NCBI GenBank assembly: GCA_024103215.1
Contig: JAGFIY010000042.1
Coordinates: 1 to 64,000 of the forward strand
Direction: 5' to 3'
Source: Melioribacteraceae bacterium
GTDB lineage: Bacteria > Bacteroidota > Ignavibacteria > Ignavibacteriales > Melioribacteraceae
DNA: 64,000 bases
Shown: in pieces, positions 35,877-54,653 of the stretch
How positions within the stretch are numbered: the first letter of the stretch is position 1
Layout of the letters: each line of letters begins with the position of its first letter
Made by a program: the position numbers and the translations under genes
The notes under the pieces: generated by a model
What the model was told of the DNA's origin: nothing
What the model saw: only the letters and a program-made list of their open reading frames with translations
The model's database searches: none

Positions 35877-36878
35877 ATGGTAACTTTTCCGTTGCCTAGA
35901 ATAGATAAAGACGAAAAACTTAAAAATTTACTTCTTCCTTACTGCAGACTAAAGCGCGGTGAAATATGGGAAGATCCATTAAACCATCACAAAGTCGGTT
36001 GTTTGGATGCATCAAAAGGAAGAAAAATCTCTTCATTTTTTAATTCCAAAAAAGCTGTGTTAGCCTTGCACGATCCGCCATATAATATAGTAGCATTTCA
36101 ATTGATGGATGTAAAAGAATTTATTAATTGGAGCAGAAGATGGATTTCTATCAGTGAAAAAAATATGAGCGAAAATTCATCGCTCTACATTTGGCTTGGG
36201 GCAGATCAACGCAATCATTTTGAACCGTTCCCGGAATTTTTGATGATGATGAGAAAAACAGGTTTCAGCTCAAAAAGTTTCATTACCATGCGCAATCAAC
36301 GAGGTTACGGGACACAGAAAAATTGGATGTCCGTAAGGCAAGAACTTCTATATTACACAAAAGGGGAACCTATCTTTAATATTGAACATGTTTATACTGA
36401 TATACCTAAAGTTCTCAAAGGTTACTATAAAGAAATCAATGGAAAATTAACTGAAAACCTTGAGAGAAGTAAATCTAAATTTATCAGAGCGGGAAATGTC
36501 TGGATGGATATTCAGCAGGTGTTCCATCTCCTGGAAGAAAACGTAAACGGATGCTATGCACAGAAACCGTTGAAAGCAGTTGAGAGGATCATTAAAGTAT
36601 CAAGCAATCCCGGCGATTTGGTTACTGATTTTTTCTCCCATGCTGGTACAACACTTTTGGCGGCAGAGAAACTAAACCGAAGATGTTTTACTGTTGATAT
36701 CGACCCGATTTATTGTGAAATTGCAATTAGAAGATTGGAACGTTTTCGCATGAAAGAATTAACGGGATGGCAGAATTCAAATCCTTTTGCAGAGGATATT
36801 ATTGGAAATAGGGAATTAACAGAATATCTTGAAGATGTATATAACATTGGTGTGCCACAAAAATTGAACGATGAATAA
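35877..36878 (+). CDS. Orphan DNA methyltransferase (N6-A/N4-C type)
   Basis: A 333-residue beta-class type amino-methyltransferase. Catalytic motif IV is DPPYNI (D66-Y69), and the AdoMet-binding motif I near the C-terminus reads DFFSHAGTTLLAAEKL, with the motif order IV then I typical of beta-class enzymes. DPPY favours N6-adenine methylation. Neither neighbour (YmdB-like phosphoesterase 3 bp upstream, folD immediately downstream) encodes a restriction enzyme, so it is solitary and embedded in a housekeeping transcript. That position suggests a regulatory or genome-marking role rather than a phage-defence cassette. Recognition sequence is unknown. Confidence 0.88.
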   Translation: MVTFPLPRIDKDEKLKNLLLPYCRLKRGEIWEDPLNHHKVGCLDASKGRKISSFFNSKKAVLALHDPPYNIVAFQLMDVKEFINWSRRWISISEKNMSENSSLYIWLGADQRNHFEPFPEFLMMMRKTGFSSKSFITMRNQRGYGTQKNWMSVRQELLYYTKGEPIFNIEHVYTDIPKVLKGYYKEINGKLTENLERSKSKFIRAGNVWMDIQQVFHLLEENVNGCYAQKPLKAVERIIKVSSNPGDLVTDFFSHAGTTLLAAEKLNRRCFTVDIDPIYCEIAIRRLERFRMKELTGWQNSNPFAEDIIGNRELTEYLEDVYNIGVPQKLNDE

Positions 36879-42492: not shown

Positions 42493-43359
42493 TTGATATA
42501 CAGAATTTTCGTTGTAATATTCTTTGCTGTGACAATATCGGCACAAACAGATAATTCAAACAAGTTTGAAATTTTGCCGGATGGATTACATTTTCTTCCT
42601 CTAAAAGCACATTTTCAGGAAGCAAGAATCGGTGTTTTATATTATCCGGATAACGGAAATTTAAAAGTTGATGTTGGTAATAATATTGATCTTGTTTATT
42701 TCAGTCTTTTCGGTGAAAGACATCGTTTCACCCTAGGCATTGAATTCATGGCTTACGCATGGTCGAGCAGTTTTCAAGGGAACCGTCTGCAGATAGATGC
42801 AGTAGATGGTTTCTTTGGAGGCAATCTTTCTTATTCATATAACTATGATAATAGCAGGTTCATTTCAAGATTTAGATTCATTCACAACAGCGCTCATCTT
42901 GTAGACGGAAGATATGATAAAGACAGAGATGAGTGGATTGAAGGTTATGAACCTATCCCTTACACAAGAGATTTTGCAGAATTAACTATTGGGCATCAGT
43001 TTTATCCTTCATTCGGTTCAGTTAGATTTTACGGTGCGGTATCCTACTCTACATTGGTTCGTCCGTCCGAGCTTCAAAGAGCAGGTGCGTTTACCGGTCT
43101 GGAGGTTTCATTCAAAGATATCGTCGGAAAAATTTTTAAGAAAGACTCAAACATTTTTTTTGCGATGCAGTTCTCTGCTTTCGGAAATCCGAACCATACG
43201 ATGGACTTGCATTTGATGTCTGGAATAAAAATTGGCGAATGGGATTCGAAAGGTGCTGTATTTTATCTATCCTACTACAAAGGTCATCATGTTTTTAGCG
43301 AATTTTATACGCGATTTCAAGAAAAGTTCGGAATTGGTTTTTTAGTAGATTTTATATAA
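42493..43359 (+). CDS. DUF1207-like outer-membrane protein, copy 1
   Basis: A 288-residue exported protein (signal segment IFVVIFFAVTISAQ) with beta-strand-rich sequence. Conserved points: FLPLKAHFQEARIGVLY, the D-x-G-N-x-I-D motif (DVGNNIDLVYF), FIHNSAHLVDGRYD and YTRDFAELT. The same signature appears in the protein at 48257, so they are paralogues bracketing the glycosyltransferase/radical SAM cluster. The start is TTG with no clear ribosome site; no ATG would retain the signal peptide. Predicted outer-membrane barrel; function unknown. Confidence 0.65.
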   Translation: MIYRIFVVIFFAVTISAQTDNSNKFEILPDGLHFLPLKAHFQEARIGVLYYPDNGNLKVDVGNNIDLVYFSLFGERHRFTLGIEFMAYAWSSSFQGNRLQIDAVDGFFGGNLSYSYNYDNSRFISRFRFIHNSAHLVDGRYDKDRDEWIEGYEPIPYTRDFAELTIGHQFYPSFGSVRFYGAVSYSTLVRPSELQRAGAFTGLEVSFKDIVGKIFKKDSNIFFAMQFSAFGNPNHTMDLHLMSGIKIGEWDSKGAVFYLSYYKGHHVFSEFYTRFQEKFGIGFLVDFI

Positions 43360-43449
43360 TTCACACAAATTTCGTTTGTTTAATCTTCGGAGAAAACAAT
43401 ATCACATTCCGGTAATACTTATATTTAATATTTACTTTTAGATCCGTGA

Positions 43450-44418
43450 ATGCACGAAAAAACTTTACATAATACTGCTTATCCAAAATCAAAAAAACTC
43501 TGGCTTACTGTATTAAAAATTACGTTTTCAATTTTTTTTATATTTTTCTTAATCAACTATGTCGAATATGATAAAGTTGTAACAATTCTTGGCAAAGCAA
43601 ATATCTTATATATTCTTATTGTCATAATCCTTATGGCGACGAATATTTATTATCAATTTAAGAAGTGGGAATTGTTGGTTAACAATTTGATAAAAGAAAA
43701 AAGTAAGAAGAAAATTCTGGTTTCATTGTTTCATGGATTTGCTGCAGGCATCACAACTCCCGTGAGATCTGGAGAATATTTTGGAAGAGCAATTATTTTC
43801 AAGGAAAAACCGCTAAGTCAAATTATTATTGCAACCGCAATCGAAAAATTTATTATGATGATTCTTGTTGTTTTTGTCGGTTCAATTATTTCGTTATTAT
43901 ATTTGGTAACAATTGGTATTGCTACCTACCTCATAATTATTATAGCAGTTATTGCGATTATACTCTTTGCACTCTTTGCTCAAATTTTAAATTCACCTGG
44001 ATCATGGAAAAAAATTATACCGCACAGAATTAGAAAGTTCAAGTTTGTTGAAGACATAATGGAGAAACTTCAATTTCTGAAAAATGTGAATAAGAAATTG
44101 ATTATAAAGTTAGTGATCTTTACTGTCGCGGCATATTTTATTTATATTTTGCAATTCGGAATTCTACTTCTTTCGTTCTCAAGCGAAGGAAATTTAATAA
44201 ATGCACTTTGGTGCGGATCTTTGGTAATGTTTGTAAAAACTATTATTCCTGCCGTTGGTATCGGTGATCTGGGAATAAGAGAAGGTGCCGCTGTGTTCTT
44301 TTCTCCGGCACTTGGTTTTACTGAGGCAGCTGCACTAAACGCTGCGCTTGGCTTGTTTTTTGTTAATCTATTCCTTCCCTCGGTTGTTGGATTTATTTTA
44401 TCATTTAGAAAATATTAG
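43450..44418 (+). CDS. Flippase-like integral membrane protein (UPF0104/AglD type)
   Basis: A 322-residue protein with seven or eight membrane helices and the family's positively charged loop (YYQFKKWELLV) and GFAAGITTPVRSGEYFGRAI. The C-terminus has VKTIIPAVGIGDLGIREGAAVFF, a hallmark of the lysylphosphatidylglycerol-synthase TM/AglD group. Members flip or modify lipid-linked intermediates across the membrane. The glycosyltransferase starts 1 bp past its stop. Likely handles the lipid-linked product of the cluster. Confidence 0.8.
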   Translation: MHEKTLHNTAYPKSKKLWLTVLKITFSIFFIFFLINYVEYDKVVTILGKANILYILIVIILMATNIYYQFKKWELLVNNLIKEKSKKKILVSLFHGFAAGITTPVRSGEYFGRAIIFKEKPLSQIIIATAIEKFIMMILVVFVGSIISLLYLVTIGIATYLIIIIAVIAIILFALFAQILNSPGSWKKIIPHRIRKFKFVEDIMEKLQFLKNVNKKLIIKLVIFTVAAYFIYILQFGILLLSFSSEGNLINALWCGSLVMFVKTIIPAVGIGDLGIREGAAVFFSPALGFTEAAALNAALGLFFVNLFLPSVVGFILSFRKY

Positions 44419-44419
44419 C

Positions 44420-45556
44420 TTGATAGTTATCTCAACCATATTTGTTTTACTTAGTATTTATTACTTCTATTTTTTATATTCCATTCATTTTGGGATAAAG
44501 AAAATTAGGATGACTAAAGCATCAAACAGGGAAGATTTATCAGTCTCGGTGATTATTCCGTTTCGGAACGAGAGAAAAAATCTAGCAAAAAATATCGAGT
44601 CTATTCTAGGTCAAAATTATCCAAGCGACAATTTTGAAATTATTTATGTTGATGACAATTCGTCGGATGGCAGTTCTCAGATAGTTGAAGAATATATGAA
44701 ACGGAGTAAGATAAAATTAACTCTTCTTAAAATTGAAAATGAAAAATCTACTCGGGGACATAAAAAAATCGCAATCTCAAAAGGAATTGAAATAAGCTTA
44801 AATGAAATTATTGTGACAACAGATGCAGACTGTTTTTTCGGACCCGGCTGGTTAAAAAGTTTGATTGAAAATTTTAATGAAAATACCGGATTAGTTGCAG
44901 GTCCGGTAGAATATATAAGCGATGGATCGCTATTTAGCTCACTTCAAAAACTTGAATTTGCCGGTCTAATACTTTCAGGAGTCGGGTTGGTTGGAATAAA
45001 ACAACCGATAATATGTAACGGAGCAAATTTAGCTTTTAGAAAGGATGCGTTTTATGAAGTTGGCGGATACGATTCACATATGAACTTTTCATCCGGTGAC
45101 GATGAATTTTTAATGCAGAAGTTAGCATATAATACTAAATGGGATATAAGCTTTTCATTCTCAAAAGAAGCATTAGCTTTTACTCGTCCAAGTGAAGATT
45201 TTAAAAGTTTTTTCCAACAGCGGAAAAGATGGGCGAGTAAAAGTCTGCATTATCTTAATGCGAAAATTAAAATTAAGCTCGTATTAATTTTCATGTTTTA
45301 TCTGTCGTTAATAATATTCCCGATTGTATCTTTAATTCAATCATCATCTTATTTAATTTTATTTCTATTTATCTTCTTGGCGAAGATATTTGCCGAATAT
45401 ATAATTTTACTAACGGGGAAACATTATCTGTTTTCAGAACTAAAGTTTTTTTATTATATCCCAGCGCAAATGCTGCAGCCGTTGTACTTAATTTATTCAT
45501 CCATAATGGGCTTATTCGGAAGATTCGATTGGAAAGGAAGGAATCTTGCTAGATAG
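44420..45556 (+). CDS. Membrane glycosyltransferase, family 2
   Basis: A 378-residue GT2 enzyme with an N-terminal membrane segment (MIVISTIFVLLSIYYFYFLY), the GT-A catalytic core (VSVIIPFRNERKNL, IIYVDDNSSDGS, VTTDADCFFGPGW, and a QQRKRWASK motif of the Q/RxxRW type), and C-terminal membrane helices. The QxxRW-like motif points to a processive or membrane-embedded transferase. TTG at 44420, one base after the flippase stop, is preferred: the longer ATG frame from 44348 overlaps the flippase by 71 bp. Acceptor and donor unknown. Confidence 0.85.
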   Translation: MIVISTIFVLLSIYYFYFLYSIHFGIKKIRMTKASNREDLSVSVIIPFRNERKNLAKNIESILGQNYPSDNFEIIYVDDNSSDGSSQIVEEYMKRSKIKLTLLKIENEKSTRGHKKIAISKGIEISLNEIIVTTDADCFFGPGWLKSLIENFNENTGLVAGPVEYISDGSLFSSLQKLEFAGLILSGVGLVGIKQPIICNGANLAFRKDAFYEVGGYDSHMNFSSGDDEFLMQKLAYNTKWDISFSFSKEALAFTRPSEDFKSFFQQRKRWASKSLHYLNAKIKIKLVLIFMFYLSLIIFPIVSLIQSSSYLILFLFIFLAKIFAEYIILLTGKHYLFSELKFFYYIPAQMLQPLYLIYSSIMGLFGRFDWKGRNLAR

Positions 45557-46190
45557 ATTAAGAGTATATTCACCGCCAAGTTTTGTGATGAAATTATTTC
45601 CGGAGTTTGTTTGGGAATGTAGTAATGAAAAGATTCTTTTTACATTTGATGACGGTCCAAATCCTGAAACCACTCCGATTATATTAAAAACACTAGCAGA
45701 TAAAAGAATTAAAGCAGTATTCTTTCTTGTTGGTCAAAATATTGAACGATATAAATCGCTGGCTTCCGAAACAATTTCGGAAGGGCACGAAATAGCAAAT
45801 CATACTTATTCGCATTATGACGTGTGGGGATTGAACAGGAAGAAAATCAATTTTGAGATAAAGAAATGTTCTCAATTGATTGAAGAAGTTCAAGGTAAAC
45901 CACCTAGAATGTTCAGGCCGCCGCACAATCGTTTTGATTTGTGGACTGCAGCAACATCGCACAAGAACAATTTAAAATGTGTTATTTGGTCACTTCTTAC
46001 TTACGATTATAAAAATGATTTAAATATTGTTAAATTTGCCGGGGAAAGATATATTGCAAAAAATTCTGTTGTTGTACTTCATGACAGCATCAAATCGAAA
46101 GATATAATTGTTGATTCGATTAATTTTCTTGCGGACCAAATTGAACACAGAGAATTTCAAATAGGAAAACCATCCGAATGTTTGAACTAA
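45546..46190 (+). CDS. Polysaccharide deacetylase (CE4, NodB-like)
   Basis: A 214-residue carbohydrate esterase 4 protein. Motif 1 is TFDDGP with the catalytic base and metal Asp, motif 2 HTYSH supplies the two metal histidines, motif 3 reads RPPHNRFD instead of the usual RPPYG, and LHD near the C-terminus is motif 5. It probably removes N-acetyl groups from an amino-sugar glycan. No signal peptide is visible, so it likely acts on cytosolic or lipid-linked intermediates. TTG start overlaps the preceding gene by 11 bp; the next gene overlaps it by 13 bp. Confidence 0.85.
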   Translation: MLDRLRVYSPPSFVMKLFPEFVWECSNEKILFTFDDGPNPETTPIILKTLADKRIKAVFFLVGQNIERYKSLASETISEGHEIANHTYSHYDVWGLNRKKINFEIKKCSQLIEEVQGKPPRMFRPPHNRFDLWTAATSHKNNLKCVIWSLLTYDYKNDLNIVKFAGERYIAKNSVVVLHDSIKSKDIIVDSINFLADQIEHREFQIGKPSECLN

Positions 46191-47269
46191 TTTTTCTTGC
46201 GGCAGTTTCCTTGTACTTTATTCAAGTGATAATTTTTATTATCGGTGCGCAGAAAAAGTTTCCTCAAATCAGCGACTCGGAATTGCCGGCGATTACTGTG
46301 ATTGTTGCTGCAAGAAACGAAGAACAAAATATATTTAATTGTATCGAATCACTTTCAAATTTGGAGTATCCGGAAAATAAAATTGAGATTATTATTGTTG
46401 ATGATGATTCAACTGATAGGACCGGTGAAATTGTAAAAGAATTCATTACGGACAAACCTAAGTTCAAAATAGTTAGACCAACCCGTCAAATTGGGAAAGT
46501 AAAGGGTAAAGCTCGTGCTATTGCAAACGGAATTGAAGAATCATCTGGTGAGATTATCTTAACAACTGATGCCGACTGTATTGTTAACCCAAAGTGGGCA
46601 AAAACCCTTGCATCTTATTACAAAGAAGATGTAGCAATGGTGTGCGGTTATACTGATCAATTGACTGATAATGCATTTTATGGAATGCAAAGCATGGATT
46701 TTATTTATCTCCTGGCCGTTGCAGGCGGAGCGATGAATCTGGGGAAACCTTTAAGTTGCATCGGAAACAATATGTCATACCGAAAATCTGTTTATTACGA
46801 AATAGGCGGATATGAAAAAATTCCTTTCTCGGTTACCGAGGATTTTCAAGTGCTGATGACCATGCACAAGCTTAAAAAGTATAAAATAATTTATCCTCTT
46901 GATAAAGGGGGATTGGTGACTAGCAAACCTTGTCCCGATGTTAAATCAATTTTCTGGCAGAAGAAAAGATGGGGAGTTGGCGGACTTGACAGCGATTTGG
47001 TTGGGTTTGCGGTCATGGCAAGTGCGTTTGTTGCTCATCTTTGCATTCTTCTAACCCCGTTTTTTTATTCAATGAATGCTTTATATTTAGCTGGCTTTAA
47101 GTTTGTGGTAGATCTCTTTTTCTTAGTTCCCTTATACAATAAGCTGAAGTTAAAATTTAGTTTAAAACATTTTTTCGCATTTGAACTGTACTTTATAGTT
47201 TATGTAATCGGGTTACCGATTGTACTTTTATTCAGCAGAAAAATTGTTTGGAAGGAAAGAGAATTTTAA
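46178..47269 (+). CDS. Membrane glycosyltransferase, family 2
   Basis: A 363-residue GT2 enzyme paralogous to the one at 44420: N-terminal membrane helix, AITVIVAARNEEQNI, IIIVDDDSTDRTGE, TTDADCIVNPKW, a QKKRWGVGG motif and C-terminal membrane helices. Two related transferases in one operon with a deacetylase and flippase suggest assembly of a short, modified, lipid-linked glycan. Stop overlaps the radical SAM start (TAATG). Confidence 0.87.
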   Translation: MFELIFLAAVSLYFIQVIIFIIGAQKKFPQISDSELPAITVIVAARNEEQNIFNCIESLSNLEYPENKIEIIIVDDDSTDRTGEIVKEFITDKPKFKIVRPTRQIGKVKGKARAIANGIEESSGEIILTTDADCIVNPKWAKTLASYYKEDVAMVCGYTDQLTDNAFYGMQSMDFIYLLAVAGGAMNLGKPLSCIGNNMSYRKSVYYEIGGYEKIPFSVTEDFQVLMTMHKLKKYKIIYPLDKGGLVTSKPCPDVKSIFWQKKRWGVGGLDSDLVGFAVMASAFVAHLCILLTPFFYSMNALYLAGFKFVVDLFFLVPLYNKLKLKFSLKHFFAFELYFIVYVIGLPIVLLFSRKIVWKEREF

Positions 47270-48246
47270 TGCTGCTTCTTTGTAATTATTATGTAACATA
47301 TAGATGTAATGCGTTCTGTGAATTCTGTCATTTTGCGGATCATTCGCAATTCAAAGAAACGGAGTTTGCAAAATTGGATGACTTTAAACGAAACGTTTTA
47401 GAACTTAATAAACTTGGTGTTAAGTTTATTGATCTAACCGGCGGAGAACCTCTTCTACATAGAGAAATACATCTGATGGCAGAATTTGCTCATAAATTAA
47501 AAATGCAGACGAGCATAACTACCAACACACTTCTCTATCCGAAGTTTGCCGAAAAACTTGCCGGTAAAGTGAACCTACTTCACTTTTCACTCGATTCACC
47601 TTATAAAGAAGTACATGACAGGATAAGAAAAGTTAAATGCTACGATCGCGTGTTTGATAGTATTGAGATTGCAAAATCTATCGGTGAATATCCGGATATT
47701 TTGTTTACGGTTACAGATGAAACTTACAAAGATCTTCCCAAAATGTATGAAATTGCTTTGAGAGAAGATTTGGTGCTTATAGTGAATCCCGTTTTTTCTT
47801 ATTTCGGAAATCCGGGTTTGTCGGAGGAAGCTTTAGATTACATAGAAGAATTTATTGATGGTAAATCCAATGTGTATATGAACAATGCATTTATCAAATT
47901 GCGAAGGGATGGAGGAAATCATGTTGATAAACCGCTGTGCAAAGCAGTGACCAGAGTGATTGTAATTTCTCCGCATAATGAAATAGTTCTTCCGTGTTAT
48001 CATTTCAGAAATAAAAATATTAAAATTACGAGTTCAATTTCTGAGATTAGAAAAAGCGAAGAATATAAGTACTACGAAAAGATGGAAGGAAAATTTGAGT
48101 TTTGTGAAGGATGTACGGTTAATTGTTATTTTGAACCTTCCTTTGCGTTTCCTACAAATAATTATGCTCTTGCCAGCATTCCTTCAAAACTGAAGTACAG
48201 TTATAACAAATTGATTAAACAAAAATTTCTATCGACAAAAAAATGA
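47269..48246 (+). CDS. Radical SAM protein with C-terminal cysteine cluster
   Basis: A 325-residue enzyme with the canonical 4Fe-4S motif CNAFCEFC (CX3CX2C) near the N-terminus (YVTYRCNAFCEFCHFADHS), the GGEPLLH motif for AdoMet binding, and a C-terminal cluster (CKAV, PCYHF, FCEGCTVNC) that could hold a second iron-sulfur centre as in SPASM-like proteins. ATG at 47269 overlaps the previous stop by one base and is preferred over an upstream in-frame ATG at 47248. No peptide substrate gene is seen nearby. Being inside a glycan cluster, it may modify a sugar, lipid or hopanoid-like carrier, but this is context inference. Confidence 0.85.
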   Translation: MLLLCNYYVTYRCNAFCEFCHFADHSQFKETEFAKLDDFKRNVLELNKLGVKFIDLTGGEPLLHREIHLMAEFAHKLKMQTSITTNTLLYPKFAEKLAGKVNLLHFSLDSPYKEVHDRIRKVKCYDRVFDSIEIAKSIGEYPDILFTVTDETYKDLPKMYEIALREDLVLIVNPVFSYFGNPGLSEEALDYIEEFIDGKSNVYMNNAFIKLRRDGGNHVDKPLCKAVTRVIVISPHNEIVLPCYHFRNKNIKITSSISEIRKSEEYKYYEKMEGKFEFCEGCTVNCYFEPSFAFPTNNYALASIPSKLKYSYNKLIKQKFLSTKK

Positions 48247-48256
48247 TTTTATTCCT

Positions 48257-49090
48257 ATGCTGAAAAAATACCACATAATATTTTGTTTTATACTTTTTAC
48301 GGGAGTTATATTTGCGCAAACTAAAACAAGTTTCTTCCCGGATGATTTATTGATTCAACCTTTTACGGCTAATCAGCTCGAACCAAAGCTGGGATTTCTA
48401 TTTCAAACCGGCGCAAATGAATTACGGTTGGATATTGGCAATTCAATCGATATTCTTAGAAAAGAATTTGAAGGAGATCTTATTATTTCATTCGGCGCTG
48501 ATTTATTTACCTACACTTTTTTGCGAGGCGAATCTAATTTTCATTTTCCCGTCGATGCAGTCGATTATCTTTTTGGATTAAATTTTGGTTTGTTGAAATC
48601 AAATGAAAGTTATGAATTAGGATTTCGTTTTAGACTAAGTCATATTAGTGCTCATTTTGTTGACGGACATTTCGACGGTACATCCGGAACGTGGAAAGAT
48701 GGACTAAATCCGAGAGTTTACAGTCGTGAATTCATCGAACTGATTCCATTTTATAAAACCGGTGACTTGAGAGTTTATGCCGGCTTCACTTACTTATTTC
48801 ATGTTGATCCTTTTGATATTAAGAAAGACAATTATAAACTGGGCTTTGATTACTTTTTCGATCAATCATTTACTAATTTATTTATTCCTTTTGCTGCTTA
48901 TGATTTAACGATAATTCACCTCAATAAATACACGGCAAATCATTCAGTAAGTGCCGGTATCAAATTCGGGAAAAAAGAGGGGAAAGGTTTCAGTGTCTAT
49001 TTTAATTACTATGCAGGCAAAAGTATTCACGGAGAATACTTCGACCGTACTGTTAACTACTCTGCAATTGGTTTAAATCTGGATTTATAG
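48257..49090 (+). CDS. DUF1207-like outer-membrane protein, copy 2
   Basis: A 277-residue exported protein (signal segment ending VIFAQ). It shares with the protein at 42493 the order LLIQPFTANQLEPKLGF, LDIGNSIDIL, RLSHISAHFVDGHFDG and YSREFIELIPF. The beta-rich pattern suggests an outer-membrane barrel. It follows the radical SAM gene by 10 bp, so it is likely in the same transcript, while copy 1 opens the region. Function unknown. Confidence 0.65.
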   Translation: MLKKYHIIFCFILFTGVIFAQTKTSFFPDDLLIQPFTANQLEPKLGFLFQTGANELRLDIGNSIDILRKEFEGDLIISFGADLFTYTFLRGESNFHFPVDAVDYLFGLNFGLLKSNESYELGFRFRLSHISAHFVDGHFDGTSGTWKDGLNPRVYSREFIELIPFYKTGDLRVYAGFTYLFHVDPFDIKKDNYKLGFDYFFDQSFTNLFIPFAAYDLTIIHLNKYTANHSVSAGIKFGKKEGKGFSVYFNYYAGKSIHGEYFDRTVNYSAIGLNLDL

Positions 49091-49091
49091 A

Positions 49092-50093
49092 ATGAATCAA
49101 AATTTTTCTGAATCTGACATAAAATTTTTTCAGCGATCAACTGTAAAATCACACTCAACTCTTGTTCATATTGCGCTATTTGTAATTACGTTTATAACAA
49201 CTGTAATCGCTGGTTTAGAATGGACTTCTGGAACAATGGGTCCATACGAATTTAATGATCTTGCTCAAGGCTTGCCCTACGCAATTTCAGCATTGTTTTT
49301 TTTAACTGCACACGAGTTCGGACATTATTTTGCGGCAAAGGCACATAAAGTGAAGACAACGCTGCCGTATTATATCCCGTTTCCACCAATACCCGGATTT
49401 TTTAATTTCGGAACTATGGGAGCTGTGATAAGAATTAAATCACCAATACCAAACAACAAAGCAATGTTCGATATTGGTGTAGCCGGCCCGATTGCCGGAT
49501 TTATCGCGTGTATAATTATTCTTGTTATTGGATTTACAAATCTTCCGGGGCCCGAATATCTAGAAAAAATTCATCCGGGGTATTTTTCGCCGGATTATCA
49601 AAGTGCAGGACTGTACTTTGCCTTCGGTGATACGATTCTGTTCTCAATATTAAGAGAAATATTCTCGCAACCGGGTGTTTTTATACCGCCGATGAGTGAA
49701 ATATATCATTACCCTTTTTTGTGTGTAGGTTGGTTCGGATTGTTCGTAACTGCAATGAATATGCTTCCAATCGGGCAGTTGGATGGAGGTCACATAGTCT
49801 ACAGTATGTTTGGATTAAAAAAGCACGAGGCTGTTGCGAGTATCTCGATGATAACGATTGGAACTCTGGGATTTATGGGTTTAGCATCTATTTTACTTAA
49901 TGCTGAAACTCCAATCGGATGGAGCGGGTGGTTGTTTTGGGCTTTTATTTTGTATTTCGTAATAAAAGTCAAACATCCACCGGTTTATGAGTTTAGTCCA
50001 TTATCGAAAACAAGAATCATTCTTGGATGGATTAGTATCTTAATTTTGTTTCTTTCATTTTCGCCTTCACCGTTTACTTTATCGATGGTGTAA
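49092..50093 (+). CDS. Site-2 protease family (M50) membrane metalloprotease
   Basis: A 333-residue multi-spanning protein with the zinc-binding HEFGH (TAHEFGHYFAAKAH) and the second conserved motif NMLPIGQLDGGH, both within membrane helices, as in S2P/SpoIVFB-type intramembrane proteases. There is no PDZ domain, in contrast to RseP. Substrates of this subgroup are not established. It starts 1 bp after copy 2 of the DUF1207-like gene. Confidence 0.9.
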   Translation: MNQNFSESDIKFFQRSTVKSHSTLVHIALFVITFITTVIAGLEWTSGTMGPYEFNDLAQGLPYAISALFFLTAHEFGHYFAAKAHKVKTTLPYYIPFPPIPGFFNFGTMGAVIRIKSPIPNNKAMFDIGVAGPIAGFIACIIILVIGFTNLPGPEYLEKIHPGYFSPDYQSAGLYFAFGDTILFSILREIFSQPGVFIPPMSEIYHYPFLCVGWFGLFVTAMNMLPIGQLDGGHIVYSMFGLKKHEAVASISMITIGTLGFMGLASILLNAETPIGWSGWLFWAFILYFVIKVKHPPVYEFSPLSKTRIILGWISILILFLSFSPSPFTLSMV

Positions 50094-50334: not shown

Positions 50335-51156
50335 ATGAAAAGAATTATTGAGATAATTACATATTTTCTGTTTGTAAGTTTGTTTTTACTAGGATGTGAT
50401 AATATTTCGGATAACCTAGTTGATAGTAATTATCCTGATTACGAAATTCTAGAAATTAATGCTCCGGAATTTTTCAATTATTCCGATAATGATTCAATCT
50501 TTTCTCACTCTGTAGTCATTTCGAACTCACATGTAGTTTCATCAATAAAATTTTCTCTTATCTCACACCTAATGGATGCATACTTAATCCAGAACGGAGA
50601 TATGAATTTGACTGATAGGACTGTTGATAATGCAACTTATTCAGCCGAGTTTGTAATGATGTACGATCTTCCCTCAGGATTATATGAAATTATGTACTTT
50701 GTAGAAGATAATATCAACGTGGAACCTGAAAACAGCAAAAAAGCTGCGTCACATACATTTATTTATTATAACGGAATCGGTAATCAACCGCCCGTAATTT
50801 CTAACCTTTCAATGAGATACGTTGACGAACCGATATCAACTTTGCGTGATACGGTTGATAGAAATGAAGATGTTATTTGGTCTATTTTTGTTAACGACCC
50901 TAATAGTATCGTGGATGTTAACAAAGTTTCATTTGAAATGTACCGGCCCGATAATTCATTTTTAGGCGAGTTCGATATGTATGATAACGGAGATTTTGAG
51001 GGCGCAGGAGATCAAACCGCCGGGGACCAAACTTATTCATTGAAAAATTCATTCAGTTCAACCGCTCAAACAGGCTTATGGCAGATGAAATTTAAGGCTG
51101 TTGATCGGGAAGGCGAGCAAAGCAATATTATCAATTTCGGATTTTATGTTAAATGA
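50335..51156 (+). CDS. Ig-like domain lipoprotein
   Basis: A 273-residue protein with a lipobox (LFLLGCDN, Cys near 22), so probably lipid-anchored. Two extracytoplasmic beta-domains are suggested: residues of about 40-145, and about 150-273, which opens NQPPVISNLSM and carries DNGDFEGAGDQTAGDQTYS. No catalytic motif. Its stop overlaps the next start by 4 bp (ATGA). With that gene and two PorV-like barrels it forms a four-gene envelope operon. Confidence 0.6.
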   Translation: MKRIIEIITYFLFVSLFLLGCDNISDNLVDSNYPDYEILEINAPEFFNYSDNDSIFSHSVVISNSHVVSSIKFSLISHLMDAYLIQNGDMNLTDRTVDNATYSAEFVMMYDLPSGLYEIMYFVEDNINVEPENSKKAASHTFIYYNGIGNQPPVISNLSMRYVDEPISTLRDTVDRNEDVIWSIFVNDPNSIVDVNKVSFEMYRPDNSFLGEFDMYDNGDFEGAGDQTAGDQTYSLKNSFSSTAQTGLWQMKFKAVDREGEQSNIINFGFYVK

Positions 51157-52736
51157 AAAAAATACTTTTTCTAATATTACTGTTTTCTACTATCGTTCTT
51201 TCTCAAAATTTTCCTCTTACTTATAAACTTGATGAGAATGAATTCTCAAAAGAATCTGCCGAGACTCCAAAAAGTAATTCCATAACTGACATAATTTTTG
51301 TGGGGGATACTGTTTGGATAGGCACCTCACGCGGTATAAGCCGAAGCACCGATTTGGGAGAAAGTTGGACTAACTTCTACGAAACTCCGGATTTCGGAAC
51401 CGACGGTATCGCAGCAATCGGATATTCGGAAGGAATTTTTTGGGCTTCTACCGCAAGGTATGAAGATTTATCCACCGGACGCGAACAAGTAGGAACCGGA
51501 TTAAAGTATACCACTGACGGAGGAACGACTTGGAACACGGTGCCTCAGCCTGTTGATGATCCCGGTGATTCGTTGATAACTTATGGAATAAATACAATCA
51601 GAGCGTTACCAATTACTGTTACTCCCCAAAACGTTACTTTCGATATTTCATTTACACCCGGCACGGTATGGATTGCTTCATGGTCGAGTGGTATTCGTAA
51701 ATCAACAAATCTTGGTGAAACGTGGGAAAGAGTTGTTCTACCACCCGATTATTTGGACTCGATAAAACCAACTGATACACTGAATTTTTCGCTTCAGGTG
51801 CAACCCGGAGAATTTGGTCCGGAAAGTTATTTAAATCACTTGGGTTTTTCGGTCTTGGGAGTAGATGAAAATATTATCTATGCCGGAACGGCAGGAGGAA
51901 TCAATAAATCCACAGACGGAGGAATTAGCTGGACAAAATTCAATCATCAGAATCAATCAAAGCCAATTAGTGGAAATTGGGTGATTGGGCTCGCCAACAA
52001 TCAGTTTGACAATTCGGTTTGGGCAGTGACGAGAAAGGCTGATGATTTAAACGAGTTTACAGGAATAAGTGCATCATTTAACGAAGGCGAAACTTGGACT
52101 ACATATTTAAGCGGAGAATCTGCAAATAATATTGGGTTCAGATATTATAAAACCAATGGGGCATTAACTAAAGCAGATGTACTAGTTTCAACAACTTCCG
52201 GAGTATTTAGATCGAAAAATAATTATTCATCATGGATATTGCCGATGCGAGTCAGTGATTCTGAGACGGGAGTTTACATTAATACCGACAATTTTTATTC
52301 AGCAGACGCAGAAAATATCAACGATAACCAAACGTATGTTTTCCTCGGTTCCGCTGGTGGACTTGCAAGATTAAAAGAAACGGGGAATGATTTTTGGTTC
52401 GGAGATTGGAAAGTTTATTTGGCATCCGAAGAATTGAAAGATGAAAGCGAGACTTATGCATTTCCCAATCCTTTCTCTCCAGATCATGAAACGGTTAGAA
52501 TTAAGTATAAGTTTAATGATTCGTCAAATCAAGTTACTTTAAGAATATTTGATTTCGGGATGAACCTAGTGCGAACTGTAATTCAGAATGCCGATAGATT
52601 TTCAAACAGAGATAATTTTGAGTTTTGGGATGGTAGAGATGAACAGAAAAATGTTGTTCCTAACGGAGTATATTTTTATAGAATTGATGTAGGCGGCAAC
52701 GAACCGCTTTTCGGAAAAATTTTAGTGATGAGATAA
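51153..52736 (+). CDS. Asp-box (BNR) repeat surface protein with FlgD-like C-terminal domain
   Basis: A 527-residue exported protein (signal ending TIVLSQ). It has at least five Asp-box motifs of the S-x-D-x-G-x-T-W kind (STDLGESW, TTDGGTTW, STNLGETW, STDGGISW, FNEGETW), which mark beta-propeller folds of sialidase or photosystem-stability-factor type. The C-terminal 90 residues are a FlgD-like Ig/sorting domain (AFPNPFSPDHETV, WDGRDEQKN, NGVYFYRIDV), a probable T9SS signal. No sialidase catalytic residues were identified, so it is likely a binding or structural surface protein. Confidence 0.75.
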   Translation: MKKILFLILLFSTIVLSQNFPLTYKLDENEFSKESAETPKSNSITDIIFVGDTVWIGTSRGISRSTDLGESWTNFYETPDFGTDGIAAIGYSEGIFWASTARYEDLSTGREQVGTGLKYTTDGGTTWNTVPQPVDDPGDSLITYGINTIRALPITVTPQNVTFDISFTPGTVWIASWSSGIRKSTNLGETWERVVLPPDYLDSIKPTDTLNFSLQVQPGEFGPESYLNHLGFSVLGVDENIIYAGTAGGINKSTDGGISWTKFNHQNQSKPISGNWVIGLANNQFDNSVWAVTRKADDLNEFTGISASFNEGETWTTYLSGESANNIGFRYYKTNGALTKADVLVSTTSGVFRSKNNYSSWILPMRVSDSETGVYINTDNFYSADAENINDNQTYVFLGSAGGLARLKETGNDFWFGDWKVYLASEELKDESETYAFPNPFSPDHETVRIKYKFNDSSNQVTLRIFDFGMNLVRTVIQNADRFSNRDNFEFWDGRDEQKNVVPNGVYFYRIDVGGNEPLFGKILVMR

Positions 52737-53738
52737 ATGAAAAAAATTGTATTCATAAAATTTTCTTTTTTGTTGCTTCTTTCATCAGTTATCTTGAACG
52801 CACAACCTGAATTTTCGCAGATTGCCGGTAAGGCGGGTGCATTCAGCCGCATGGGTTTTGGAGCAAGAGGTATTGGGATGGGGAACGCTCTCTCTTCCGT
52901 TAGAACGGGTAATCTCTCAGCCTACTACAATCCGGCATTAAGTGTTTTTCAAGAAGGGAATAATTTTCAAACCGGTTATTCTTTTCTTTCTTTGGATCGT
53001 TCATTAAATTTTTTGAACTTCACAAAACGGTTCGAGTTCGGTAAAAAGAATGAAAATTCAAAACCGGCTTCGGTTGCCGGAATGAGTGCAGGTATTATGA
53101 ACTCCGGAGTTAGCGACATCGATGGGAGAGATAATCAAGGAATTCATACCGAATATTTATCTACTTCGGAAAATCAATTTTATCTTGCTGTTGCAAACAG
53201 ATTTTCGGAAAAGTTAGCCTTGGGCTTAAATATTAAATTTTATTACTACAAACTGTATGAAGAAATAACAAGCACAGCAATTGGTTTTGACTTGGGTGTA
53301 GTCTATTCTTACAATTCAAACCTTGCCTTTTCTTTTGTGTTAACAGACATAAATTCCAAATATAAATGGGATACAACTCCTGTTTACGAACAAGCCGGAA
53401 CCAACTCAACCGACACATTTCCGCTTTTAAGAAAAATTGGGGCATCGTATTATTTTGATGATGTTAAACTTTTAACTGCACTCGAATATGAAAATAGTAA
53501 TGCAGGTACAAATTATCTAAGAGGCGGAATTGAATACGAAGTTTTTGAAAATCTATTTATTCGAAGCGGATTCGATAAACTCGATTTTAGTAATTTTGAT
53601 GTTCCTGCTATTCCTTCGTTCGGATTTTCTTATTTTTACACTTCAAGTTCGGTAATAATTGGTGCTGAGTATGCTTTTGCTATTGAACCGTATTCATCGT
53701 CAGACAGACATATTATTGGACTGAATTTTAATTTCTAA
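52737..53738 (+). CDS. PorV/PorQ-family outer-membrane protein
   Basis: A 333-residue beta-barrel with signal peptide (ending ILNAQ) and the family signature AFSRMGFGARGIGMGNALSSVRTGNLSAYYNPALS, ending in Phe. It starts directly after the stop of the Asp-box protein, suggesting it anchors, exports or escorts that protein. It is distinct from porV at 8780 and close in type to the next gene. Confidence 0.85.
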   Translation: MKKIVFIKFSFLLLLSSVILNAQPEFSQIAGKAGAFSRMGFGARGIGMGNALSSVRTGNLSAYYNPALSVFQEGNNFQTGYSFLSLDRSLNFLNFTKRFEFGKKNENSKPASVAGMSAGIMNSGVSDIDGRDNQGIHTEYLSTSENQFYLAVANRFSEKLALGLNIKFYYYKLYEEITSTAIGFDLGVVYSYNSNLAFSFVLTDINSKYKWDTTPVYEQAGTNSTDTFPLLRKIGASYYFDDVKLLTALEYENSNAGTNYLRGGIEYEVFENLFIRSGFDKLDFSNFDVPAIPSFGFSYFYTSSSVIIGAEYAFAIEPYSSSDRHIIGLNFNF

Positions 53739-53753
53739 ACTGCACGGCGAAAA

Positions 53754-54653
53754 ATGAAAATGAAAAGAATAATATTTCTCCTGTTATTAAGTTTTAACTA
53801 TATATTTCCACAGGCTGGTGACACAGGTCTCGCTTTTCTCAAAATTGGTTTCGGTGCGCGGAATATGGCAATGGGTGATTTGGGAGTAGTGCTTGCAAGT
53901 GATGTAGGTTCAGGTTTTTATAATCCGGCGCTGCTTGCGGAAAATTACAGCTCACAGATAATGCTGACCCATAACGAATGGATGACCGACGTTCGTTCTG
54001 AATTGATAGGGGCTAGTTTCAATTTGTTTGGTTTGCAGTTTGCTGCTGGATTTAATACTACAAGCATATTTGACTTCGAAATTCGAACAAAACCGGGCGA
54101 ACCGGTTTCTACATTTAATGCTAATTATTTTTACGGTAGTCTTTCAACAGGTTTCAATATTTATCAAAAACTTTCAGCCGGGTTAACCTTTAAGTTCATT
54201 CACGAAAATTTATTAACCGATCAAGCAAGAGGAATTGCTTTTGATTTTGGACTATTTTATAGGGATGTTATAGAAAATCTAAATATAGGTGCAGCAATAA
54301 AAAACATCGGATCAATGAATGAATTACGAAATGAATCAACAGAACTTCCGATGGATGTTAGTATCGCAGCTTCTTATAACTATTACTTCAACGAGTTGAA
54401 TTCTGATCTAACGCTCGCAGCGGGTTATCAATTATTCACTCAGACATCAGATTCACACGTAAACTTCGGCGCAGAGTTTTTATACGATGCGGTGTTTGCA
54501 CTACGAACTGGTTACTTAACCGGCTACGAAACTAAGGGCCTCACTGCCGGAGCAGGAATCTTTTGGGATTCCATTAGATTTGATTATGCATTTATTCCGC
54601 TCGATTATGATTTGGGAAATTCACATATCATTTCTATTGGATATGATTTTTAA
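53754..54653 (+). CDS. PorV/PorQ-family outer-membrane protein
   Basis: A 299-residue barrel protein with signal peptide (ending YIFPQ) and GLAFLKIGFGARNMAMGDLGVVLASDVGSGFYNPALLA, ending in Phe. Third PorV/PorQ family member in the window and tandem to the second. A tandem pair behind a FlgD-tailed protein suggests dedicated surface attachment factors for particular cargo (inference). Confidence 0.85.
   Translation: MKMKRIIFLLLLSFNYIFPQAGDTGLAFLKIGFGARNMAMGDLGVVLASDVGSGFYNPALLAENYSSQIMLTHNEWMTDVRSELIGASFNLFGLQFAAGFNTTSIFDFEIRTKPGEPVSTFNANYFYGSLSTGFNIYQKLSAGLTFKFIHENLLTDQARGIAFDFGLFYRDVIENLNIGAAIKNIGSMNELRNESTELPMDVSIAASYNYYFNELNSDLTLAAGYQLFTQTSDSHVNFGAEFLYDAVFALRTGYLTGYETKGLTAGAGIFWDSIRFDYAFIPLDYDLGNSHIISIGYDF

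Follow-up and report, generated by a model that had tools for sequence, protein, structure and literature searches.

The window analyzed here is a stretch of 64,000 nucleotides (positions 1 to 64,000 of contig JAGFIY010000042.1) from a Melioribacteraceae bacterium of the phylum Bacteroidota (GCA_024103215.1), whose 3.2 Mb genome is 99.9% complete. It carries a cassette of seven genes, arranged head to tail on the + strand, in which two related outer-membrane barrels (BarA and BarB) enclose a flippase-like protein (Flip), two family 2 glycosyltransferases (GT2a and GT2b), a polysaccharide deacetylase (PDA) and a radical S-adenosylmethionine (SAM) enzyme (rSAM). The genes, with the one that follows them, are:

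42493..43359, + strand: BarA, outer-membrane barrel, DUF1207-like paralogue, 288 residues, signal peptide, HNSAHLVDG motif
43450..44418, + strand: Flip, multi-transmembrane LPG_synthase_TM / TIGR00374 flippase-like protein, 322 residues
44420..45556, + strand: GT2a, membrane glycosyltransferase family 2, 378 residues from TTG 44420
45546..46190, + strand: PDA, polysaccharide deacetylase of carbohydrate esterase family 4 (CE4)/NodB type, 214 residues, signal peptide not apparent
46178..47269, + strand: GT2b, membrane glycosyltransferase family 2, 363 residues, near-universal neighbor of BarB
47248..48246, + strand: rSAM, radical SAM enzyme, CxxxCxxC plus the C-terminal Cys set C231, C250, C286, C289, C293
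48257..49090, + strand: BarB, DUF1207 12-stranded outer-membrane barrel, 277 residues, HISAHFVDG motif
49092..50093, + strand: M50 site-2-protease-like gene (PF02163), directly downstream of BarB

A first-pass annotation had described the enzyme genes as overlapping or about a base apart and flanked on both sides by related barrels, and both observations are borne out. Flip and GT2a are separated by 1 bp, while GT2a/PDA, PDA/GT2b and GT2b/rSAM overlap by 11, 13 and 22 bp; 90 bp lie between the BarA stop and the Flip start, 10 bp between rSAM and BarB, and 1 bp between BarB and the M50 gene, which is probably a neighbor outside the pathway. The most likely start of GT2a is TTG 44420, which yields 378 residues, as in its relatives; the alternative start called at 44348 by the open reading frame finder would overlap Flip. 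BarA and BarB are 29% identical over 282 residues (E=1e-30), and their profiles match with a probability of 100% (E=3.6e-59). Because the gene order recurs in tens of genomes, the cassette is not a chance arrangement. A third paralogue of the barrels is encoded outside the cassette in the same genome (G000:C105:2418-3245; 35% to BarA).

BarB passes the DUF1207 model (PF06727) with 43.7 bits against a curated cut-off of 22 (E=2.3e-11). BarA has no Pfam match and stays below the DUF1207 cut-off; of the 25 BarA sequences aligned, 16 hit this family at E<=0.1. The domain name DUF1207 is used by no paper in the literature searched. In an alignment of 95 divergent DUF1207 sequences spanning the phylum, D103, R124, H129, S131, H133 and D136 are invariant in 95/95, position 158 holds either Glu or Asp throughout, and the H-x-S-x-H motif is present in 20/20 divergent DUF1207 loci. 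H131, N132, S133, H135 and D138 are invariant among the 25 BarA sequences. The HxxAHxVDG signature pointed out by the first-pass annotation is present and forms part of a fuller one, R-x-R-x-x-H-x-S-A-H-x-V-D-G.

The AlphaFold2 model of BarB, built from 75 sequences, is a 12-stranded barrel with a mean predicted local distance difference test (pLDDT) score of 95. Its top match in the PDB is OMPLA (1fw3), and OMPLA entries alone reach template modeling (TM) scores of 0.50-0.57, porins, FadL, BamA and autotransporters remaining mostly at 0.3-0.45. The odd-numbered residues of strand 5 (121, 123, 125 and 127) are hydrophobic and therefore presumably lipid-facing, and toward the outer end the same face carries on through H129, S131 and H133. 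In strand 6, hydrophobicity parity makes the even-numbered residues lipid-facing, acid 158 among them. By this parity, H129/S131/H133 and acid 158 apparently face the lipid near the outer surface. Since the His-x-Ser-x-His motif plus acid is both invariant and apparently lipid-facing, we read the barrels as a putative outer-leaflet enzyme: the conserved residues point to a resemblance to lipid-cutting enzymes and not to conduits or channels. The PLA1 family model (PF02253) matched neither BarB nor, at E<=0.1, any of the 25 BarA sequences. A search of solved structures with the barrel profile returned nothing meaningful, and a viral structure library searched with BarB returned generic barrels only.

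In some class-level relatives the lpxC-lpxA operon ends with the DUF1207 gene. Among 29 class-level genomes with DUF1207, nine have it on the strand of lpxA, either immediately after that gene or no more than about 0.5 kb further downstream, distributed by family as follows:

f7: G168, G172, G209, G433
f9: G117, G309, G386
f11: G176, G440

The arrangement is lpxC/fabZ-lpxA-DUF1207 in loci L250, with DUF1207 overlapping lpxA, and L255; lpxD-lpxC/fabZ-lpxA-DUF1207, again overlapping, in L251, where lpxA was named from its own sequence and from an lpxA search; and lpxC/fabZ-lpxA-sugar transferase-DUF1207 in L257. Both lpxC and lpxA are present in the window genome, which therefore probably makes lipid A. 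On the strength of the invariant, apparently lipid-facing Ser/His/acid residues, the OMPLA-like fold and the linkage to lpx genes, the barrels are best read as an outer-membrane lipid enzyme, a view that we consider about evenly balanced between right and wrong.

Flip matches PF03706 above its cut-off (E=4.9e-19) and scores 33 bits with TIGR00374, under that model's cut-off. GT2a (PF00535, E=3.6e-28; TDAD and QRKRW motifs) and GT2b (PF00535, E=2.9e-29) are paralogous (30% identity, E=5e-51), and both keep TDAD and QxxRW-type motifs. GT2b aligns with ceramide glucosyltransferase over ~230 residues (4-230), other matches being stronger but shorter, and ArnC structures are weak matches covering about 35-171. 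PDA (PF01522, E=1.9e-31) keeps the CE4 motifs TFDDGP, NHTYSH, RPPHNR and LHD and matches a peptidoglycan N-acetylglucosamine deacetylase in the PDB (E=9e-24). In rSAM (PF04055, E=6.2e-25) the Cys set is invariant, and the predicted model is of moderate confidence (pLDDT 79). By sequence and by fold its best match among solved structures is BlsE, a cytosylglucuronate decarboxylase and thus a sugar-acting radical SAM enzyme; however, identity is 18%, and rSAM attains 58 of 400 bits, far under the BlsE equivalog cut-off.

Co-occurrence was counted in 79 genomes of the family, representing 35 genera. GT2b is present in 73/79 genomes and 35/35 genera, and some homologue of BarA/BarB in 75/79; GT2a is found in 39/79, a BarA orthologue (>40% identity) in 36/79 and rSAM in 17/79. 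BarA and GT2a occur together in 33 genomes, BarA alone in three, GT2a alone in six and neither in 37, an association with Fisher p about 9e-13 by genome and 3e-4 by genus, shared ancestry being ignored in both values. The neighborhoods form a series. The simplest form is GT2b-BarB only, followed by Flip-GT2a-PDA-GT2b-BarB and then by the same set with BarA in front; in the fullest forms rSAM stands between GT2b and BarB, and then BarA and Flip are also separated, by a second radical SAM/SPASM gene. The latter gene, of about 336 residues, was seen in L021, L023, L024, L025 and L029; its nearest NCBIfam model is TIGR04317, whose cut-off it misses by far, and a search of the window genome, run without a positive control, did not find it. 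Wherever sequence reaches, GT2b (or GT2b then rSAM) directly precedes BarB in the 80 named loci used for the gene-order comparison, including loci without BarA, Flip, GT2a, PDA and rSAM. The block BarB-M50-h10-h11-h12-h13 is kept in nearly all of these loci, enzymes present or not, and since this downstream block is nearly as constant, the BarB-GT2b linkage may partly reflect inherited gene order. In one genome (G074; L028, L061) the cassette is split, with BarA-Flip-GT2a lying tens of kb from PDA-GT2b-rSAM, and the latter genes are followed by an apparent ATP-binding cassette transporter permease and ATPase in the place of BarB.

The order Flip-GT2a-PDA-GT2b(-rSAM) is kept across Melioribacteraceae/Ignavibacteriaceae. 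Outside the family, f2, a family of the same taxonomic order, has the set PDA-GT2b-rSAM-BarB. The distant Bacteroidota family f21 (L193, L196, L197) carries GT2-Flip-GT2a-PDA-GT2b-rSAM in order and without barrels, with 23-34% identity to the cassette for Flip, GT2a, PDA and GT2b and 50-52% for rSAM; bshC lies about 8 kb upstream in these loci as well. Of 395 phylum genomes, 33 contain relatives of rSAM (E<=1e-60). In other families these lie mostly among unrelated genes, so that their neighbors in distant Bacteroidota give no clue to the substrate. DUF1207 is present in 150 of the same 395 genomes, mostly without these enzymes at the loci examined. In family f10 (L244, L253) it is instead preceded by a membrane GT2, a GT28-like protein and a large protein in which a PHP-type motif is apparent; in L244 no Pfam match was obtained.

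The conserved block behind the cassette occupies 50335-54653 of the window. There, h10 is lipoprotein-like, the end of h11 resembles a C-terminal sorting domain, and h12 and h13 are two PorV-like barrels; the block is kept in nearly all relatives. Upstream, at 35877-36878, lies an open reading frame that, judged by its sequence, resembles a DPPY-type DNA methyltransferase.

The first-pass annotation had proposed a self-contained pathway that builds and modifies a lipid-linked glycan or lipid and places it on or through a paired barrel. Its enzymatic part finds support in the conserved, tightly packed enzyme set and in a characterized precedent, HexSDF, but its unity was overstated. BarB and GT2b occur without the other genes, rSAM is sporadic, barrels alone are widespread and enzymes alone are found in L193, L196 and L197, so that a self-contained system is not supported; nor is a pairing of the barrels, since BarB stands beside GT2b also where BarA is absent. 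That annotation had named two outcomes that would count against it, namely barrels found widely without the enzymes, and paralogues and enzymes failing to co-occur elsewhere. These outcomes are in part observed. As GT2a, BarA and rSAM come and go, and barrels and enzymes occur separately, the cassette is better described as a modular set than as one fixed pathway.

Gene order, protein families, motif conservation, predicted fold class and the lpx-operon linkage in relatives form the observed basis for the reading that we favor, to which we assign almost, though not quite, an even chance: Flip, the GT2 enzymes and PDA make an amino-sugar lipid of the envelope, rSAM optionally modifies it, and the barrels act as lipid acyl-hydrolases or acyltransferases of the outer membrane. 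The membrane GT2 enzymes would add one or more N-acetylated sugars to a lipid acceptor, and PDA, given its family and active-site motifs, would strip the N-acetyl group from this presumed substrate to leave a free amine. Flip, judging by its family, would help to carry the lipid across the inner membrane, and in some strains rSAM would alter the sugar or lipid once more. With a Ser-His-acid site that apparently looks out into the lipid close to the cell surface, BarA and BarB would then remove or transfer an acyl chain, the target being either the amino-sugar lipid or lipid A. Substrates, the direction of the acyl chemistry and the sharing of one lipid by barrels and enzymes are what we infer here.

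Several points weigh against this reading. Barrels and enzymes are often apart, with barrels widely lacking the enzymes and f21 enzymes lacking barrels; the BarB-GT2b linkage sits in the longer M50-h10-h13 block and may be inherited order; and in the window genome the barrels lie on another contig than the lpx genes. HexS is annotated as a monogalactosyldiacylglycerol-type synthase, not a GT2, and HexF is dispensable for the product (PMC10128005). Foldseek E-values of porins and FadL are near those of OMPLA, so that TM-score alone separates them; the lipid-facing placement derives from sequence parity and predicted strands and not from inspected coordinates; and the HxSxH-D residues could instead be metal ligands. 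In addition, hhalign in several modes detected no homology between the barrels and OMPLA: BarA, BarB or the 95 combined DUF1207 sequences gave probabilities <1% against a thin profile of seven Bacteroidota PLA1 sequences. The control barrels, the PorV-like h12/h13, gave higher scores by way of aligned stretches of about 30-36 columns, and the comparison therefore means 'not detected', no more. Since no sequence homology to PLA1 was found, our claim is that the barrels work like OMPLA, not that they are OMPLA.

Among other explanations, export of an exopolysaccharide or short glycan, in which PgaC-type GT2s polymerize, the CE4 enzyme deacetylates and the barrels export as in Pga/Ica systems, appears unlikely. 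PgaC_IcaA is the top NCBIfam score of both GT2s, which share the QxxRW-type motif, and the deacetylase is NodB-like; but these scores (about 100 and 97 bits) lie far below the TIGR03937 PgaC cut-off of 422, the cassette has no PgaA-like tetratricopeptide repeat porin or PgaB lipoprotein, PDA has no evident signal peptide, and the barrels, of 12 strands, are small and apparently turn polar residues toward the lipid. We likewise give only a modest chance to aminosugar addition to lipid A via undecaprenyl phosphate, as in FlmF2/NaxD of Francisella or ArnC/ArnD, where a GT2 would form undecaprenyl-phosphate-N-acetylhexosamine, PDA and Flip would follow and an unlinked transferase would complete the route. 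The logic of GT2, deacetylase and flippase fits, as do the DUF1207-lpx linkage in relatives, the lpxC and lpxA genes of the window genome and the ArnC structures among the weak GT2b matches. However, the cassette has no ArnT/FlmK-like GT83 transferase and two GT2s instead of one, and the alignment of GT2b with ceramide glucosyltransferase is longer than that with ArnC. Less probable still is that GT2b and BarB are functionally unrelated members of an old block among which other genes come and go. Such inheritance would account for the retention of BarB-M50-h10-h11-h12-h13 with or without enzymes and for the separate distribution of barrels and rSAM elsewhere, but not for the insertion of rSAM between GT2b and BarB, the shared presence and absence of BarA and GT2a, or the enzyme order kept in a distant barrel-free family. 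Finally, a hopanoid head-group pathway on the HpnI-HpnK-HpnJ pattern, in which glycosyltransfer and deacetylation are followed by a ring contraction by a radical SAM enzyme, has the same enzyme logic and gives weak HpnI and HpnH matches, but is very improbable and was rejected, because no cassette protein exceeds any Hpn cut-off and squalene-hopene cyclase is found above the TIGR01507 cut-off in 0/79 family genomes.

The barrel family is a more interesting outcome than the unity of the cassette. To our knowledge, few outer-membrane barrels are enzymes; we know of PagP, PagL, LpxR, OMPLA and the OmpT-type proteases. DUF1207 proteins may represent an unrecognized, phylum-wide group of lipid acyl-hydrolases/acyltransferases, tied to lpx genes in some lineages, of which two paralogues were recruited into an aminosugar-lipid cassette of Ignavibacteria with an optional rSAM; this wider proposal is possible, with the balance leaning somewhat against it. 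If true, it would explain how much of Bacteroidota, cultured Ignavibacteria among them, remodels the lipids of the outer leaflet. The reading supplies a testable function for a widespread barrel family that had none and, for the cassette, predicts an amino-sugar lipid in Ignavibacteria.

The nearest characterized operon to the cassette enzymes is HexSDF. In C. difficile, the glycosyltransferase HexS, the polysaccharide deacetylase HexD and the MprF-like flippase HexF are required for aminohexosyl-hexosyl-diradylglycerol; HexS is thought to put an N-acetylhexosyl group on a glycolipid and HexD to deacetylate the product, and where HexS and HexF are present but HexD is missing, strains accumulate the N-acetyl intermediate (PMC10128005). 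The cassette shares with it the combination of glycosyltransferase, polysaccharide deacetylase and MprF-type flippase in one operon, but differs in its two GT2 transferases, the rSAM of some strains, the barrels and the outer-membrane host. In FlmF2/NaxD/FlmK and ArnC/ArnD/ArnT, a GT2 and a deacetylase also act on a lipid-linked sugar; unlike these systems, the cassette itself has no final GT83 transferase. As to the barrels, PagL is an 8-stranded lipid A deacylase barrel that uses H-x-S plus Glu. Both PagL and LpxR resemble BarA/BarB as small outer-membrane barrels, and both act on lipid A, but LpxR depends on N9, D10, T/S34 and H122 and not on H-x-S (PMC3486919). OMPLA is a serine hydrolase with an exterior His142-Ser144-Asn156 triad (PMC5043575). 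BarB differs from it in a second invariant His (H-x-S-x-H), in E/D158 for Asn156 and in a longer inter-strand loop; what it shares with OMPLA/PldA, its top fold match, is twelve strands and an H-x-S whose partner on the following strand is polar or acidic, a site that sequence parity puts, apparently, on the exterior.

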